Source of the DNA: Candidatus Zixiibacteriota bacterium
Lineage (GTDB): Bacteria; Zixibacteria; MSB-5A5; GN15; FEB-12
Direction of reading: 5' to 3'
DNA length: 64,000 bases
Assembly: GCA_022571985.1 (NCBI GenBank)
Contig: JACZWU010000004.1
Coordinates: 1 to 64,000, forward strand
Shown here: positions 25,488 through 32,687 of the stretch, one piece after another
Numbering within the stretch: position 1 is the stretch's first letter
Layout: every line of letters begins with the position of its first letter
Program-made: the position numbers and the translations under genes
The notes under the pieces: model-generated
The model's input: only the letters and a program-made list of their open reading frames with translations
Told to the model about the DNA's origin: nothing
Databases searched by the model: none

Positions 25488-28400
25488 TTACAACTTACTT
25501 TTCAGCTTCGCCAATCTCTCTTTCGCATCCTCGACAGATTCAAGTCCCTCATCGGCGTTTTTCCAGATATCAAGAAATGTTTCGTATTGCTTAATGGCGT
25601 CATCGTATCTCCCGGCTGCCTCGTATGTCTTGCCAAGATTATAGTAAGTAATCACCGACAAGGCCGGCCAATCAGCCCGACCCCTCCCCAGGGCCCCGCT
25701 CCGATCGTACCGGTTGATCATCTTTTCATACAATACTATGGCATCTTCAATGCGCCCAGCGCGGAAGTAGCATCCGGCAAGTATCTGTCGATTTTTATGA
25801 TCAGGTCGTGCGTTTAACATAACCACCCTTTCAAGATTGGCAATGGCGCTGTCGAAATTACCCTTTTCAAGCTCGACCCTGCCGGAAATAAACCAAAAGG
25901 AATAATAGGACCTTGGGCCATATCTGTCAAAGTTGACTTTATATTCCTCAATAATTTTATCCGCTATTTCGAAATTGCCTCTCAGAGCATGACTATATCC
26001 TATGCGAGCCTGGGAGGAATGAAGAAGTTGGGCGTTGGGGGCAATGTCTTTCAATAATCTGATTACTTTTTCATATTCTGCGATGGCCGAGTCATGCTCA
26101 TGCAATATTTCCTGAAAAGTAGCGGCTCTCCTGAATATGCCCTCTACCAGACGAAAGTCATTGATGGAATCAGAAATTGCCTCATCTTTTAGTTTGTCCA
26201 ATAAGACCAGCGCCAATTTGAACTTTCCCTGATGCAGAGGCAATTGCGCCAGCGACAAACGGCCCTCGGCGCGCCAGTACTTGTCGGAGTAAGACGCCAC
26301 AATCCGGTAGAGGCTGTCAGCTTTGCCATATTCCTGCATAAACATATACACATTCCCCATCTTCAAAATGGAGCCGACATAGTCAGGTTTCAATTGCAGA
26401 GCTTGGGCAAAAGAGACTACAGCACTATCAAGCATTCCGTTGTCGGCAAAGATATCCGCCCGGGTATCAATCGCACTGTATTTGTCCGGCAGCAATTCTA
26501 TAGCCTTGTTGGCCGCCCAAAGTGCTTTGTCGAAATTTCCAATCTGACTGTATATATATGCGAGATCATGATAGGCATTTAGATTAACCTCGACAGCTTT
26601 CTCAGACAGGCTGATAGCTTCATCATTTCTGCCCATGTTCACCAGTAAAATCGACAAGGCACTGGATGTCCACTTTGGATCAATTTCAAGTAAACGATGG
26701 TAGAGTATCACTGCCTCTTCCAATTCCAGCGACAGCCACTTGTTAAGCGCCCGGTTGTAATTAAGAGGCTTCGACATAGGATTCAACTGGTAAGCTATCT
26801 CCTCTTCTTTAATCTTATCCTGGTACCTTGCCGTCTCCTGCAGTACTATCGAGTACCAGAAATGAGCCCAGTGGTAACCGGGATTGAGTTCGATTGATTT
26901 CTGAAATTCCCTCTCAGCTCCTTGCAGGTCCGACTCTTTCCAGAGTATGAGTCCCAAAGATGCGTGAGCCTCGGCCAAATTCTCATCAATTTCTATCGCT
27001 GTCTGGGCCGCCTCTCTTGCTTTCTTCAGAGCTTCGGTTTTGGATACTGCTCGTCCTCCGGTAAAGTCTAATGCCTGTCCGCCACCAATAGCCCAGGCGT
27101 CGGCCAGACCGGAATAGGCCAGGGCATAATATGGGTCGAGTTCAATAGCTCTTTCGAAATGTTCGATTTGTTGGAGTAAGTTCACATAATCACGTTTGGT
27201 CCACAATTGGCGGCCCCGCATATAAGAATCAAAAGCCTCAATATCTTTCGTATAGCGGCGGGAAATAGATTTTGCACCTTCATCAAACAGCTCAATTCTC
27301 ATTGCATTTACAATAGCCTGAGAAATATCATCCTGAATATCAAAGATGCTTTCAAGCTCGCGGTCGTAGGTTTGTGACCAGATGTGTGCGTCATCTGATA
27401 CATTAATCAACTTCGCCTGAACACGAAGCCTGTTGCCCTCAAGCTGAATGCTGCCTTCGAGGATCGTGTTGACCTGCAAATCATGACCAATCTTTCTCAA
27501 ATCTCTATCGGGGTTCTTATAGCGCATTACTGAGGTCATAGAGATAACTTTAAGATTTTTGATGCCCGAGAGTTTGCCGATAATGGCATCGGTCATACCG
27601 TCTGAGAAATATTCCTGGTCTTGCCCTGAGCTGAAATCTCTCAACGGCAGAACGGCTATTGAGTTGTCCCAGCCTTTTTCGACTGCGCGGTCAGTCAGTA
27701 CAAATCTGTCAACAATGAAATAACCGGCTGCCAGAACAACTACCGCTGCCGTAATCCACAGGCCAATTTTGCTTGGAGGCGTAGGCGCCGGTTCAGTCTT
27801 GAGCCTCTTCAGGTCAGACAGCATCCCGTCCGCGTGCTGGTATCGGAGAGAGACATCTTTGGATAAGGCTTTATCTACGATCTGCTGAAGCTCCCCTGAA
27901 ACGCCGGACTTAAACCGCGAAACTGGCTCTGGGGCAGCATCGGTGATGGCTTTGACGACCGCCGCATCGTTGTCTCCTTCGAACGGCCGGCGACCGGTTA
28001 ACATCTCATATAGAATCACACCGATTGAGAAAATGTCAGAACGACGGTCAACATTTTCCCCTGTTATCTGCTCAGGTGACATATAGCCGACAGTTCCAAG
28101 AGTCGAACCGGTCTTGGTCAGTTTCTCTTCTCCCGACAGAGTAGCCAGACCAAAGTCCAGAATACGAGCACGACCCTCGGTATCTATGATGATATTACTG
28201 GGCTTAATGTCACGATGAACTACACCCGACTCATGCGCTTTATGCAACCCCTCGCAGATTTGCATGCAATGGTCAATAGCTCCCTGTACAGATAGGTTGC
28301 CCTGTTTTATAACTTCTCGAAGCGACTGCCCCTCGATATGAGCCATGGCAAAAAACGGCCTGCCCTGATACTCTCCGACTTCATGGACAGGGACGATATT

Positions 28401-28652
28401 GGGATGGTCAAGTTTGGCAGCGGCTTTGGCCTCCCGTGTAAAACGGGCGCGGCTGGTTTGGTCCTGACTGAGATGAAAAGAAAGAAACTTGAGCGCTACT
28501 TTTCGATCCAGCTTGGTATCATGAGCCAGATAAACTTCCCCCATCCCTCCGGCACCGATTTTAGAGATAATCTGGTAGTGCGCTATTCGCGTACCGGCAG
28601 TCAGCGGGGTGAATGATCTGGTTTGACCATCGTCAAAACCCTGTGCTGTCAT
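25488..28652 (-). CDS. Membrane Ser/Thr protein kinase with TolB/FlgO-like and TPR domains
   Basis: A 1054-residue Hanks-type kinase. The kinase domain spans about 25-290: GAGGMGEVY P-loop, VALKF lysine, HRDIKPSN catalytic loop, DFG, SPEQ and RRSDIFSIG. One membrane helix lies near 297-318. A module near 330-455 (SIAVLPLRDFSSGQDQEYFSDG ... LEGSIQ ... LINVSDDAHIWS) is typical of TolB-like/FlgO-like regions found behind such kinases and CadC-like regulators. The rest (about 500-1054) is a long TPR array. The predicted topology is a cytoplasmic kinase and an external sensor/scaffold part. The start ATG has AAGGA upstream. A perfect inverted repeat sits 30-54 bp ahead of the start and might be an operator. 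A broken paralogue is nearby. Confidence 0.92.
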   Translation of the reverse strand: MTAQGFDDGQTRSFTPLTAGTRIAHYQIISKIGAGGMGEVYLAHDTKLDRKVALKFLSFHLSQDQTSRARFTREAKAAAKLDHPNIVPVHEVGEYQGRPFFAMAHIEGQSLREVIKQGNLSVQGAIDHCMQICEGLHKAHESGVVHRDIKPSNIIIDTEGRARILDFGLATLSGEEKLTKTGSTLGTVGYMSPEQITGENVDRRSDIFSIGVILYEMLTGRRPFEGDNDAAVVKAITDAAPEPVSRFKSGVSGELQQIVDKALSKDVSLRYQHADGMLSDLKRLKTEPAPTPPSKIGLWITAAVVVLAAGYFIVDRFVLTDRAVEKGWDNSIAVLPLRDFSSGQDQEYFSDGMTDAIIGKLSGIKNLKVISMTSVMRYKNPDRDLRKIGHDLQVNTILEGSIQLEGNRLRVQAKLINVSDDAHIWSQTYDRELESIFDIQDDISQAIVNAMRIELFDEGAKSISRRYTKDIEAFDSYMRGRQLWTKRDYVNLLQQIEHFERAIELDPYYALAYSGLADAWAIGGGQALDFTGGRAVSKTEALKKAREAAQTAIEIDENLAEAHASLGLILWKESDLQGAEREFQKSIELNPGYHWAHFWYSIVLQETARYQDKIKEEEIAYQLNPMSKPLNYNRALNKWLSLELEEAVILYHRLLEIDPKWTSSALSILLVNMGRNDEAISLSEKAVEVNLNAYHDLAYIYSQIGNFDKALWAANKAIELLPDKYSAIDTRADIFADNGMLDSAVVSFAQALQLKPDYVGSILKMGNVYMFMQEYGKADSLYRIVASYSDKYWRAEGRLSLAQLPLHQGKFKLALVLLDKLKDEAISDSINDFRLVEGIFRRAATFQEILHEHDSAIAEYEKVIRLLKDIAPNAQLLHSSQARIGYSHALRGNFEIADKIIEEYKVNFDRYGPRSYYSFWFISGRVELEKGNFDSAIANLERVVMLNARPDHKNRQILAGCYFRAGRIEDAIVLYEKMINRYDRSGALGRGRADWPALSVITYYNLGKTYEAAGRYDDAIKQYETFLDIWKNADEGLESVEDAKERLAKLKSKL

Positions 28653-28813: not shown

Positions 28814-28842
28814 TTGACATCTTTTCAAGAACTGACTTTATT
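28814..28842 (+). promoter_or_regulatory. Candidate promoter for leader ORF and ABC exporter
   Basis: A perfect TTGACA at 28814-28819 and TTTATT at 28837-28842 are separated by 17 bases, about 70 bp before the leader ORF. The -10 match is partial. Confidence 0.45.
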
Positions 28843-28911
28843 TATTTGAATTAGGATAATAATAAGATGAAAAAATTCCTTTTACAACCCGTAACGGAGG
28901 TGCTAATCAGT

Positions 28912-28986
28912 ATGAATAGATTTCGCATAGTGACACTAATGCCGTCTAGCCCAAAGTTAAGCGGGGAAGAAGGAATTACTTTGTAA
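28912..28986 (+). CDS. 24-residue leader peptide of the ABC exporter operon
   Basis: The short frame MNRFRIVTLMPSSPKLSGEE followed by GITL and TAA has an unusually strong ribosome site: CGGAGGTG 8 bases before the ATG. It ends about 27 bases before an intrinsic terminator that precedes the two ABC exporter genes. Its codons 16-18 contain TAAGCGGG, which can pair with the 5' arm of that terminator, and its stop codon overlaps another switching arm. This is the classic layout of a translated attenuator leader. The idea that ribosome stalling on it controls the exporter is inference, by analogy with the bmrB leader of B. subtilis bmrCD. Confidence 0.6.
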   Translation: MNRFRIVTLMPSSPKLSGEEGITL

Positions 28987-29046
28987 AAAATTTCACAAAG
29001 AGTTCTTTGTAGCCCGCTTATACCAGATAGATAAAGCGGGTTTTTT
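28958..29046 (+). promoter_or_regulatory. Attenuator with mutually exclusive hairpins
   Basis: Arm A TAAGCGGG (28958-28965, inside the leader ORF) is complementary over 8 bases to arm B CCCGCTTA (29013-29020). Arm B also pairs with arm C AAGCGGG (29034-29040), which is followed by a T run, giving a terminator. Between A and B, CTTTGT (28979-28984) can pair with ACAAAG (28995-29000), which can instead pair with CTTTGT (29005-29010). A ribosome at the leader stop codon would mask A and the first CTTTGT and favour termination. A ribosome stalled early would free A to pair with B and allow read-through. Confidence 0.55.
29013..29046 (+). terminator. Intrinsic terminator before the ABC exporter genes
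   Basis: A 7-bp G/C-rich stem CCCGCTT/AAGCGGG with a 14-base loop is followed by six T. It lies 38 bp ahead of the first exporter gene, so it must be bypassed for expression. Confidence 0.75.
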
Positions 29047-29083
29047 ATTGACCAAATTTTGATAAAATAAAGGCTTTCAGATA

Positions 29084-30901
29084 ATGAATAAGGAATTATA
29101 CGAAGACGAACAGATTCACAGCAGCGACTTAAGCATTGTTGCTGCCTTCAAGAACCTGCTGCCGTTCTTAAGAGCACATAAAAAAAGGCTGTATGCTGCT
29201 CTGGCTCTTCTGGGCGGAGTAACCGGCCTGTCGCTGCTCTGGCCGATTTTAGTGCAGCAGGTGATAGACGCTCAACTGGTCAGACAGCTGGAACTTGAGC
29301 CAGCTTTGCGAGAGTTTCAGCCTATCATAGTGCTCGGCCTGGCGATTGTTGCGATTCAGTTTGCGACAATAGTAATGCAATATTATCAGAGAGTTATGCT
29401 TGAAACTGTCGGTCAGGATATCATGCTCGATTTAAAAAAGAAGCTGTTTGAGCATGTGCTGTCACTTGATGTTTCGTTTTTCGACAAGAATCCGGTCGGA
29501 CGGCTAATGTCCCGCATAGAATCTGATACAGAGTCGCTGCGTCTCTTGTTCACCAATACGGTCGTGCTGGTGATTGGTGATCTGCTTTTGATATTCGGAA
29601 TTTTTGCTGTCATGTTTTACAAAGAGTGGCGGCTGGCGCTGGCCTTACTAACTGTCATGCCCGTACTAATTATAATGATCTGGATTTTTCATAAATTAAC
29701 CAGCCATCGATTTTTGATAGTGCGCAAAAGGATGGCCGAAGTTACCGCTACTCTTACAGAATATCTGCACGGCATGTCAATCGTTCAGATTTTCCACCGC
29801 GGCGAGTATACCAGGAAGAAAGTGTACGATGCCAACCAGCGGAAATTCAAAGAAGATGCTTTCGTGAATATGTCGGTCGTGCTCTTTTTTAATCTGCTCT
29901 TCTATATGGAGTACGTAAAAATTGGTTTGGCGCTTCTTTTGGGTTCCTGGCTGGGAGTCTCACCCGGGATCATAGTCCTTTTCATATTACTAATTTGGCG
30001 CGAGTTCGATCCGATAGCCAGAACCGCCGACCAGTTAGGGAATTTCCAAAAGGGCTTAGCCGGCGCCAGAAGGATATTCGGGCTTCTGGAGATTGAACCT
30101 CGCCTGACTGATGCGGACAATCCAGCAGCTTGGCCGGGACTAAAAGATGCCATTCGTTTTGAAAACGTTTGGTTCTCATATAACGATGATGACAACTATG
30201 TGCTGAGAGATGTCAGCTTTGAAATACCGGCCGGTTCGCGGGTGGCGCTGGCGGGCGTTACCGGCGGCGGTAAAAGCACAATTGTTAATCTGATGTTCAG
30301 GTTTTATGACCCTCAAAAAGGATGCATCACTATTGATGGCGTGGATATCAGGACTATCGCAACCTCGGAGCTGCGCAGGAGATTTGCTTTGGTGCTGCAG
30401 GACATAATTCTTTTTCCGGGGGATATCGCCGAAAATATTGGCCTTGAGGCTGAAGAAATCGACAGAGACAAAATCGAAACCGCTGCTAAAACTGTAGCTG
30501 CTGATGAATTTATCGAAAAGCTGCCGGACAGGTACAATACAAAAGTTTCTGAAAAAGGAGCCAATTTCAGCCGCGGCGAAAGACAGCTTTTGTCTTTTGC
30601 GCGGGCTTTAGCGTTTGACCCGGAGCTGTTGATCTTAGATGAAGCGACAAGTTCAGTCGACCCGGAAACAGAACGGACAATTCAGAATTCGCTTAAGAAA
30701 TTAACCAGCGGACGAACTTCGATTATTATTGCCCACCGTTTGTCGACGATTCTCGATGTCGACCAGATTTTAGTGATTCGTAAAGGTGAAATCGTCGAGC
30801 GAGGCAGACATACCGAGTTGATACTCGCAGGTGGCTACTATTCAAAACTGTTCCATCTGCAATTTAAGAATAAAAACGGAGCGCTGACTAATGTTAAATA
30901 A
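29084..30901 (+). CDS. ABC exporter subunit 1 (heterodimeric, BmrC/BmrD type)
   Basis: A half-transporter of 605 residues: six membrane helices in the first 340 residues, then an ATPase domain. Walker A is GVTGGGKST and Walker B LLILDEATS has the catalytic Glu; the H-loop is IIAHRLS. The signature motif is degenerate (FSRGERQ instead of LSGGQ). The partner gene overlaps its 3' end by 11 bases and has the opposite defect, as expected for a heterodimeric exporter with one consensus and one degenerate ATP site. Such exporters move drugs, lipids or peptides; the substrate here is unknown. Expression is probably set by the leader ORF and terminator just upstream. Confidence 0.92.
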   Translation: MNKELYEDEQIHSSDLSIVAAFKNLLPFLRAHKKRLYAALALLGGVTGLSLLWPILVQQVIDAQLVRQLELEPALREFQPIIVLGLAIVAIQFATIVMQYYQRVMLETVGQDIMLDLKKKLFEHVLSLDVSFFDKNPVGRLMSRIESDTESLRLLFTNTVVLVIGDLLLIFGIFAVMFYKEWRLALALLTVMPVLIIMIWIFHKLTSHRFLIVRKRMAEVTATLTEYLHGMSIVQIFHRGEYTRKKVYDANQRKFKEDAFVNMSVVLFFNLLFYMEYVKIGLALLLGSWLGVSPGIIVLFILLIWREFDPIARTADQLGNFQKGLAGARRIFGLLEIEPRLTDADNPAAWPGLKDAIRFENVWFSYNDDDNYVLRDVSFEIPAGSRVALAGVTGGGKSTIVNLMFRFYDPQKGCITIDGVDIRTIATSELRRRFALVLQDIILFPGDIAENIGLEAEEIDRDKIETAAKTVAADEFIEKLPDRYNTKVSEKGANFSRGERQLLSFARALAFDPELLILDEATSSVDPETERTIQNSLKKLTSGRTSIIIAHRLSTILDVDQILVIRKGEIVERGRHTELILAGGYYSKLFHLQFKNKNGALTNVK

Positions 30902-32687
30902 ATTAAAGTGGCTGTTGCAGTTCTATCGCGGTCACCCGCTGATTCTGTCAATTTTATTAATACTTACGCCGCTGCACGCCTTTATCAATGTCGGCATTCC
31001 GCTAATGCTCGGCTTTTCAGTAGACTACACCCGCAGCGGTCAGGTTCCGGCACATTGGCTGGCGCAGCTGGTTGTCGATCTCGGCAGTCGCTTAGATTTA
31101 GAACCGGGGACTTCGTTTGGGCTGGTCTTTATATTGGGAGGGTTGATTACATTCAGCCTTTATGCCTGCTTTCAGTCGGCCAGAGCCTGGATGAACTGCC
31201 GTCTGGAGTGGAAGTTTCGTCAGTATTCTTTTGACGGTGTGACCAAAAAAGGTCCGGATTTCTTCGGCCGCTTTCGCACCGGAGATTTAATTACCCGCAT
31301 GACCGACGATGTGGCCGACAAACTTTCCTGGTTTGCCTGCTCGGGAATTTTCCGCACCTACGAAGCGCTGCTTCAGATAACGTTTATACTGGCCATGATG
31401 ATGACAATCGATCCGGTTCTGACGCTGTGGACAGCCGGGCCGTTGCCTCTTTTGATTTTGATTTTCTTTTTCACAAGTTCGATTTTGGAAAAACGTTACG
31501 ATGCGCTGCAGGCCACAATTTCTAAATTTAATGATGTCATGGAAGCCTGCTTCTCGGGAATACGAGTTGTCAAAGCTTATGTGAGAGAGAACGTACAAAA
31601 GAAAAAGTTCGCCGATACAGCAATGGAGCGCCGCAATGCTGAAATTATATCTGTCAAAGCGACCACAGTTGTTGATTCACTCTATGGTTATATCTGGCAG
31701 CTGGGGGTGGTTATAGTACTGCTGGCAGGCGGCTACAAAGTGCTCTTTTCCGATCTGACACTGGGCGGGATGGCCACATTTATTTATTACGTGGTCTGGT
31801 TAGTATTCCCGATGTTTGATATAGGACAGTTTTTGGTGAAGTCACGGCAGTCGGCTGTTTCTATTAATCGGTTGTTAGAGTTAGAAAATGTGCCGGCTAT
31901 GATAGAAGATAAGGGAACGAAAGAAATCGGCCTGGATGTGAAAGCACAGCTTTCTTTTGAATCTGTCCATTTTGCCTTTCCTGATTCAAGGAATCCGATT
32001 TTGACCAATATAAATTTTGAAATCAAAGCCGGTCAGACAGTAGCCTTAGTCGGACGGCTTGGCTCCGGCAAAACCTGGCTGATAAACTTAGTGCCTCGGT
32101 TAGTTGACCCGACTGAAGGGTCTGTCAAATTAGACGGCATAGATTTACGAGAATATAAGCTCGAAGAACTCAGGCGTATTGTCGGCTATGTGCCGCAGGA
32201 ACCGGCTTTGTTCAGCGACAGTGTCAGAAATAATATAACTTTTGGCCGCGAAGGAATCAGTGAGACGCTGCTTGAATGGGCCATAGATGTTGCTCAGTTA
32301 AGAAGCGATATTGAATCTTTCCCTGAGGGGATGGATACTGCCATCGGTACTCGCGGCATGGCTATCTCCGGCGGACAAAAGCAGCGGTTAGCGCTTGCCA
32401 GAGCTTTGGTCGGCAAGCCCAGGATACTAATACTCGACGACTGCACTTCGGCGCTTGATTCTGCTACCGAAACGGCTTTGTGGGAACGCCTGCATCAGGT
32501 AATGCCGGATATGACGGCATTGCTGATTACTCATCGTCCCGACACTCTGCAGGGCGTGGATATGATTTATGTTTTTGAGAACGGGCGCATCATTGAAACA
32601 GGCAAGCATGACAAATTAATTGCCAGCGGCGGCGAGTATGCTAAAATCTATCGTCGTTATGAATTGGAAGAGCAGGTCAGCGCTTAA
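30891..32687 (+). CDS. ABC exporter subunit 2 (heterodimeric)
   Basis: A 598-residue half-transporter with six membrane helices followed by an ATPase domain. Walker A is GRLGSGKTW and the signature ISGGQKQRLALARAL is canonical. Walker B ends ILILDDCTS, with Asp where the catalytic Glu should be. Combined with the degenerate signature of the first subunit, this places one inactive site (this Walker B with subunit 1 signature) and one active site (subunit 1 Walker B with this signature) in the dimer. The start ATG lies inside the end of the previous gene, so translation is coupled. A REP-like element follows the stop. Confidence 0.92.
   Translation: MLNKLKWLLQFYRGHPLILSILLILTPLHAFINVGIPLMLGFSVDYTRSGQVPAHWLAQLVVDLGSRLDLEPGTSFGLVFILGGLITFSLYACFQSARAWMNCRLEWKFRQYSFDGVTKKGPDFFGRFRTGDLITRMTDDVADKLSWFACSGIFRTYEALLQITFILAMMMTIDPVLTLWTAGPLPLLILIFFFTSSILEKRYDALQATISKFNDVMEACFSGIRVVKAYVRENVQKKKFADTAMERRNAEIISVKATTVVDSLYGYIWQLGVVIVLLAGGYKVLFSDLTLGGMATFIYYVVWLVFPMFDIGQFLVKSRQSAVSINRLLELENVPAMIEDKGTKEIGLDVKAQLSFESVHFAFPDSRNPILTNINFEIKAGQTVALVGRLGSGKTWLINLVPRLVDPTEGSVKLDGIDLREYKLEELRRIVGYVPQEPALFSDSVRNNITFGREGISETLLEWAIDVAQLRSDIESFPEGMDTAIGTRGMAISGGQKQRLALARALVGKPRILILDDCTSALDSATETALWERLHQVMPDMTALLITHRPDTLQGVDMIYVFENGRIIETGKHDKLIASGGEYAKIYRRYELEEQVSA

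Follow-up and report, generated by a model that had tools for sequence, protein, structure and literature searches.

Control of a heterodimeric ABC exporter by a translated leader has been described for bmrB, which precedes bmrCD in Bacillus subtilis and contains a terminator/antiterminator switch: ribosome inhibitors raise read-through, whilst an untranslated leader results in low, uninducible expression (PMC4191407). In the accessible part of the report by Naville and Gautheret (2010, PMC2965389), predicted antiterminator attenuators before ABC operons (the ABC-leaders) are given for Firmicutes and Gammaproteobacteria and include a multidrug export operon in lactobacilli, with no leader peptide or stall motif described in that part. 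Trp-type attenuators, such as E. coli trpL, rely on four arms that pair as 1:2, 2:3 and 3:4, with about 16 nt between the control codon and arm 2, which is soon followed by the stop codon. In the leaders of ermC, ermB, ermD and msrD, as well as at XP(X) sequences, a peptide motif stalls the drug-bound ribosome and the RNA refolds, although several of these macrolide-dependent leaders control translation and not transcription (PMC6238534, PMC10314930). The exporter leader analysed here shares features with each of these systems.

The exporter locus and its leader

The window, by which we mean the whole stretch of 64,000 nucleotides that was analysed, originates from the 2.9 Mb genome of a Candidatus Zixiibacteriota bacterium and contains an ABC exporter operon together with its putative attenuator. 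The gene upstream (25488–28652, minus strand; kinase/TPR) is divergent from the exporter operon, and the terminator can hence serve this operon only. The two exporter genes overlap, and by sequence their products are a heterodimer of the TmrAB/BmrCD/TM287-288 type with one degenerate ATP site; this resemblance places the exporter in the multidrug type but does not fix its substrate, and for the exporter subunits nothing lay above the curated NCBIfam cut-off among the matches listed. The gene order differs from that of bmrCD, where BmrC is followed by BmrD, in that the BmrD-like subunit is encoded first. Transcription is expected to start near 28849, downstream of a probable promoter that in most relatives reads TTGACA-N17/18-TATATT at the equivalent place; nearly all relatives have a TTGACA-type promoter sequence ahead of the leader. 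The elements assigned to the locus are as follows:

28814–28842, plus strand: probable promoter, from sequence (TTGACA 28814–28819, 17-nt spacer, weak -10 TTTATT 28837–28842)
28876–28896, plus strand: arm Z (anti-antiterminator), adjoining the leader ribosome site; pairs with arm A and its 3' flank (28957–28977)
about 28896–28902, plus strand: leader ribosome site GGAGGTG, from sequence
28912–28986, plus strand: leader ORF of 24 codons, MNRFRIVTLMPSSPKLSGEEGITL, with ATG at 28912 and stop codon TAA at 28984–28986; 23–30 codons in relatives
28942–28944, plus strand: predicted control (stall) codon CCG, Pro11, 16 nt upstream of arm A, from Pro enrichment in relatives
28958–28965, plus strand: arm A (antiterminator 5' arm), TAAGCGGG, inside the leader ORF, from A:B covariation
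28979–29000, plus strand: stop-codon hairpin CTTTGT/ACAAAG (28979–28984 with 28995–29000), from sequence and folding
29005–29010, plus strand: third arm CTTTGT, alternative partner of 28995–29000, present in L001–L003 only
29012–29020, plus strand: arm B (terminator 5' arm), GCCCGCTTA, common to A:B and B:C, from covariation and folding
29034–29046, plus strand: arm C and T-run, AAGCGGGT, intrinsic terminator, from B:C covariation and a terminator at 50/50 loci
29084–30901, plus strand: ABC exporter subunit with intact catalytic site (ILDEATSSVD), relative of TmrA, BmrD/YheH and TM_0288
30891–32687, plus strand: partner ABC subunit with degenerate Walker B (ILDDCTSALD), relative of TmrB and BmrC/YheI

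The core of this region agrees with what the initial annotation had proposed: a 24-codon ORF with its ribosome site, eight bases inside this ORF that are complementary to the terminator 5' arm (A, 28958–28965, with B, 29013–29020) and a terminator shortly before the exporter. The exporter ATG lies at 29084, 37 nt beyond the terminator. The terminator stem is made up of B:C (29012–29019/29034–29041), followed by the T-run at 29041–29046. Folding had been put forward as a check, and for 28900–29060 it gave z = -3.4, with 0/200 shuffles as good. The likeness to bmrCD that had been drawn stands as a functional resemblance but does not extend to the layout: the bmrB terminator lies inside a 54-codon ORF (PMC4191407), whereas here the ORF ends (28986) before the terminator (29012–29046).

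Conservation of the leader and covariation of its arms

A search of the 60 nearest relatives turned up a related exporter gene in each, with a few of the best matches being paralogues or fragments, and upstream regions were extracted from 50 of these relatives: an intrinsic terminator precedes the exporter gene at every one of the 50 loci. Using a strict filter, a leader ORF of 20–32 codons that has a ribosome site and ends just before the terminator is present at 31/50 orthologous loci, compared to 1.35 ± 1.2 loci in dinucleotide shuffles. If each locus is represented by its best ORF and weaker ribosome sites are allowed, with leader starts picked by ribosome-site strength, a leader of 23–30 codons is seen in about 46/50. 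The stop codon lies mostly 20–29 nt before arm B, and about 17 nt separate it from the 3' end of the preceding arm A: relatives retain the leader length and the distances between A, stop codon and B, whilst the peptide drifts.

Covariation was counted on a MAFFT alignment of 38 sequences that was not fitted to the structure. A:B is paired in 91.7% of cells, with double changes at 6/9 pairs (32 double-change cells vs 9.4 in shuffles), and B:C in 97% of cells, with double changes at 5/8 pairs (25 vs 6.1); since the loci are related by descent, these shuffle counts are not read as probabilities. The same B columns vary jointly with A and with C, for example GAC/GTC/GAC replacing GGC/GCC/GGC, and each A is on average better suited by its own B than by the B arms of other species. 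The covariation of A, B and C proposed as a check is hence present in relatives, and so are the leader ORF and the arm complementarity, whose lack of conservation the initial annotation had named as grounds for abandoning its proposal. Given that the leader ORF is conserved at the level of order to class and that both A:B and B:C covary, sequence comparison strongly supports the interpretation of the leader region as a translated transcription attenuator of the exporter operon.

Arm Z did not feature in the initial annotation. When leaders were folded from the expected start site, A was paired upstream in most relatives (0.63, vs 0.34 after shuffling the 5' UTR alone), with its upstream partner peaking 20–25 nt before the start codon (near -22), beside the ribosome site. 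Z:A duplexes formed by a leader's own arms have an energy of -13.65 kcal/mol compared to -11.06 ± 0.34 kcal/mol for permuted ones (0/5000). In the nascent leader of the window (28849–28975), Z:A reaches 0.72 per nt, to be displaced when B emerges: an anti-antiterminator in the untranslated state is found for the family, and in the window only in nascent RNA. With Z:A, A:B and B:C all present, the four-arm logic of trp-type attenuators is complete.

An in-frame ATG at 28867 would provide a 39-codon leader; the stretch 28867–28911 covers arm Z, and translation from this ATG would disturb Z:A. It is found in this genus only and 23–30 codons are normal in relatives, for which reasons it was rejected and 28912 is the likely leader start. 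The conserved peptide C-terminus RGGxGVS was likewise rejected as a peptide signal: it is mainly an RNA arm, since L009, L012 and L013 read that stretch in another frame. On the 3' side of arm A, a purine-rich GGAGAGGTGTATCT (alignment columns 26–37) is kept in most relatives, also in those that read it in a different frame, and may act as an internal ribosome-site-like pause.

The predicted Pro-x-Gly control site and the probable inducing signal

A second element missing from the initial annotation is Pro-x-Gly, the sole motif left in leader peptides that have otherwise drifted beyond alignment. Pro is located 13–18 nt upstream of A in 23/45 leaders (4.8 expected), an interval that was picked after a scan, with 12/31 later-added leaders also carrying the motif; Gly is located 7–12 nt upstream of A in 23/45 (6.0 expected). 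The enlarged set gave Pro in 35/76 leaders (8.4 ± 2.6 expected) and Gly in 31/76 (8.7 expected), with 15–17 nt for Pro and 9–11 nt for Gly as the typical places. All four Pro codons and all four Gly codons are used at the motif, and CC at the control distance occurs 35 times in frame, the other two frames having 9 and 8 (for GG at its distance, 34 compared to 7 and 12), so that selection acts on the peptide and not on RNA pairing. About half of the leaders have no Pro at the control position but rather Leu, Ile or others, and stalling may thus be partly independent of sequence. The window itself exhibits Pro-Ser-Ser-Pro without the Gly, the second Pro codon being at 28951–28953. As the toeprint distance of a stalled ribosome is 16 nt (PMC13410324), arm A would remain just uncovered if the control-site Pro occupied the P site.

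We hold it to be likely that the exporter operon is governed by a four-arm (Z-A-B-C), ribosome-controlled attenuator, in which a Pro stall would lead to read-through and the inducer would probably be a translation-blocking compound; conservation, covariation, fixed spacing and Pro-x-Gly selection are observations, from which we infer folding order, stall, inducer and export substrate. During normal translation, the ribosome would come to rest at the leader stop with its footprint between A and B, reaching from near the 3' end of A past the stop codon and leaving little RNA before B: A:B could not close, B would pair with C and transcription would terminate 37 nt before the exporter. The RNA downstream of a ribosome at the stop codon does fold into B:C in the window. 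A ribosome stalled with Pro in the P site would have its front edge just at the first base of A, such that Z:A is blocked, A is free, A:B can form and RNA polymerase would read into the exporter genes. On a leader free of ribosomes, the first pairing would be Z:A and the next B:C, again giving termination. The earlier prediction of termination upon full translation and read-through upon early stalling fits this geometry, to which a specific stall codon can now be added.

Folding energies bear on these states in different ways. For the majority of relatives, a leader without a ribosome folds at equilibrium into Z:A plus B:C, and folding from A onwards only also favours B:C at equilibrium; read-through in these relatives must hence depend on A:B closing before C has been transcribed, as it does in other attenuators. 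In the window the states are near balance (A:B -50.1 vs B:C -47.7 kcal/mol) and the full leader at equilibrium prefers A:B over Z:A; termination without translation would there rest on folding order.

Turning to the signal, E. coli ribosomes that have bound erythromycin stall at XP(X), Pro then occupying the P site (PMC6238534), and on this analogy drug induction of the exporter is likely: the cell probably senses blocked translation in order to turn on the exporter, the likely inducer being a compound that blocks translation and, in the manner of erythromycin in E. coli, halts ribosomes at X-Pro-X. The macrolide-dependent leaders themselves exhibit other motifs (PMC6238534, PMC10314930). More tentatively, and with somewhat less than even confidence, the leader could be a phylum-wide, hard-wired sensor of ribosome-targeting compounds, with Pro-x-Gly as a dedicated drug-dependent arrest motif placed with nucleotide precision relative to the antiterminator arm, through which a trp-type attenuator of four arms would drive a multidrug exporter. 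If the operon is drug-induced, its inducers would reveal which ribosome-targeting compounds these environmental bacteria meet.

The same attenuator anatomy could instead serve a general translation-rate sensor, differing from the stall-codon reading in the specificity of the signal: any slowing, be it through drug, starvation or cold, would open the switch and Pro-x-Gly would only set a basal pause. The wide variation of the peptides and the lack of Pro from the control site in half of them speak for such a sensor, as does bmrB, where the response is mediated by rare codons and a general slowing (PMC4191407). Selection of Pro-x-Gly at a fixed distance from A, however, exceeds what a rate sensor needs and is also a difference to bmrB, itself from a different phylum; we regard a pure rate sensor as rather unlikely.

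An A-B-C covariance model matched 108/132 phylum genomes at E <= 0.1 and 79 genomes at E <= 1e-4: among the strong class-level matches examined, those outside amino-acid operons lie before the orthologous exporter, and weaker matches before other genes include clear amino-acid attenuators. Two Zixiibacteriota trpE operons (L120, G039:C126:10244-10336; L123, G052:C114:6548-6640) have classical Trp attenuators with leaders ending in ...ARNWWWWSIPDTGSG and ...YWWWWPMSYIGSG, respectively, both carrying WWWW. Tyrosine-run leaders (YYYRYYYAF in L125, G079:C81; YYRYYYYY in L129, G039:C113; YYYQYF in L119, G131:C8) are positioned before chorismate mutase/DAHP synthase/prephenate operons and are probable Tyr/Phe attenuators. 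The last control codon is about 16–17 nt before A in L120, L123 and L129 when read by eye, with arm A of L120 and L123 also assigned by eye and not by automatic calling. The exporter leaders share the four arms and the spacing of control codon and stop with these trp-type attenuators, and differ in having one Pro within Pro-x-Gly in place of a run of control codons and in preceding an exporter.

The Pro of the exporter leaders thus occupies the same place as the tandem Trp codons of the phylum's trpE attenuators, and selection of a single amino acid exactly where Trp and Tyr attenuators hold their control codons would be expected if scarce charged tRNA-Pro stalled the ribosome and the operon exported or handled a related compound. 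We nevertheless consider proline starvation improbable: there is usually a single Pro, encoded by four different codons and present in half of the leaders, whereas the true amino-acid attenuators of the phylum use runs (WWWW, YYYRYYY) and no control-site run of one amino acid's codons was found in 76 exporter leaders; furthermore, the gene controlled is a multidrug-type exporter and not a biosynthetic one. The stall-codon reading would combine the geometry of an amino-acid attenuator with a selected nascent-peptide motif, and, judging by the distribution, attenuation of a drug-type exporter by ribosomes seems to be an old trait of this whole uncultured phylum, beyond the Firmicutes; in the literature searched, no paper linking Zixibacteria with leader peptides was found. 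The roughly 80 diverged leaders constitute a natural library in which mainly stall codon, arm spacing and arm pairing have been retained and with which the stall-site rule can be put to a direct test.

The stop-codon hairpin and further copies of the element

A second trio of arms (CTTTGT, ACAAAG, CTTTGT) had also been described, and all three are present in the window, with the first CTTTGT (28979–28984) overlapping the leader stop codon. The third arm was found in L001–L003 only and is rejected as a general feature, being specific to the genus, whereas the first two arms represent, in the window, a stop-codon hairpin seen in about half of the relatives. There it takes the form of a palindrome, TGTGA-N6-TCACA, over the leader stop with constant spacing (e.g. 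L016, L027, L030) and identical to the CRP consensus; it may act as a pause hairpin. Given its occurrence at about half of the loci and its weak covariation, the hairpin was rejected as a core element and kept as an accessory one.

The match to the E. coli CRP consensus at constant spacing in many lineages might point to a DNA site of a CRP-family regulator, with a protein and not folding controlling the operon, yet half of the loci are without the palindrome, some carry other palindromes and the A:B, B:C and Z:A covariation and the ORF would be left unexplained; as the 2.9-Mb genome contains 3 such sites and the reversed pattern used as a control occurs once, meaning no genome-wide excess, the operator was rejected and is very improbable. 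Equally slight is the chance of a ligand-binding riboswitch, or of a plain terminator with a chance ORF, which would account for the terminator and the alternative pairing but not for a leader ORF and ribosome site conserved far above shuffles, for frame-dependent codon selection and spacing fixed to the stop codon, for the divergent upstream gene or for 0 matches to Rfam families at gathering score in the window.

Within the genus of the window, ACAAAG would pair with the first CTTTGT when no ribosome is present and with the second when a ribosome covers the stop codon, a refinement to the attenuator that is absent from other genera. Weak covariance matches in other phyla (G136, G175, G211, G276) were not counted as exporter leaders; the one in G175 (L148, G175:C97:7477-7566) is a similar element with a Trp-rich leader (...DSWWGW...). 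L115 (G029:C1:818225-818320) is a second strong copy of the attenuator (MNIISTTNQIVPLGKLRGGGIAPSL), located before a truncated exporter copy of 320 aa that is followed by an unrelated gene.
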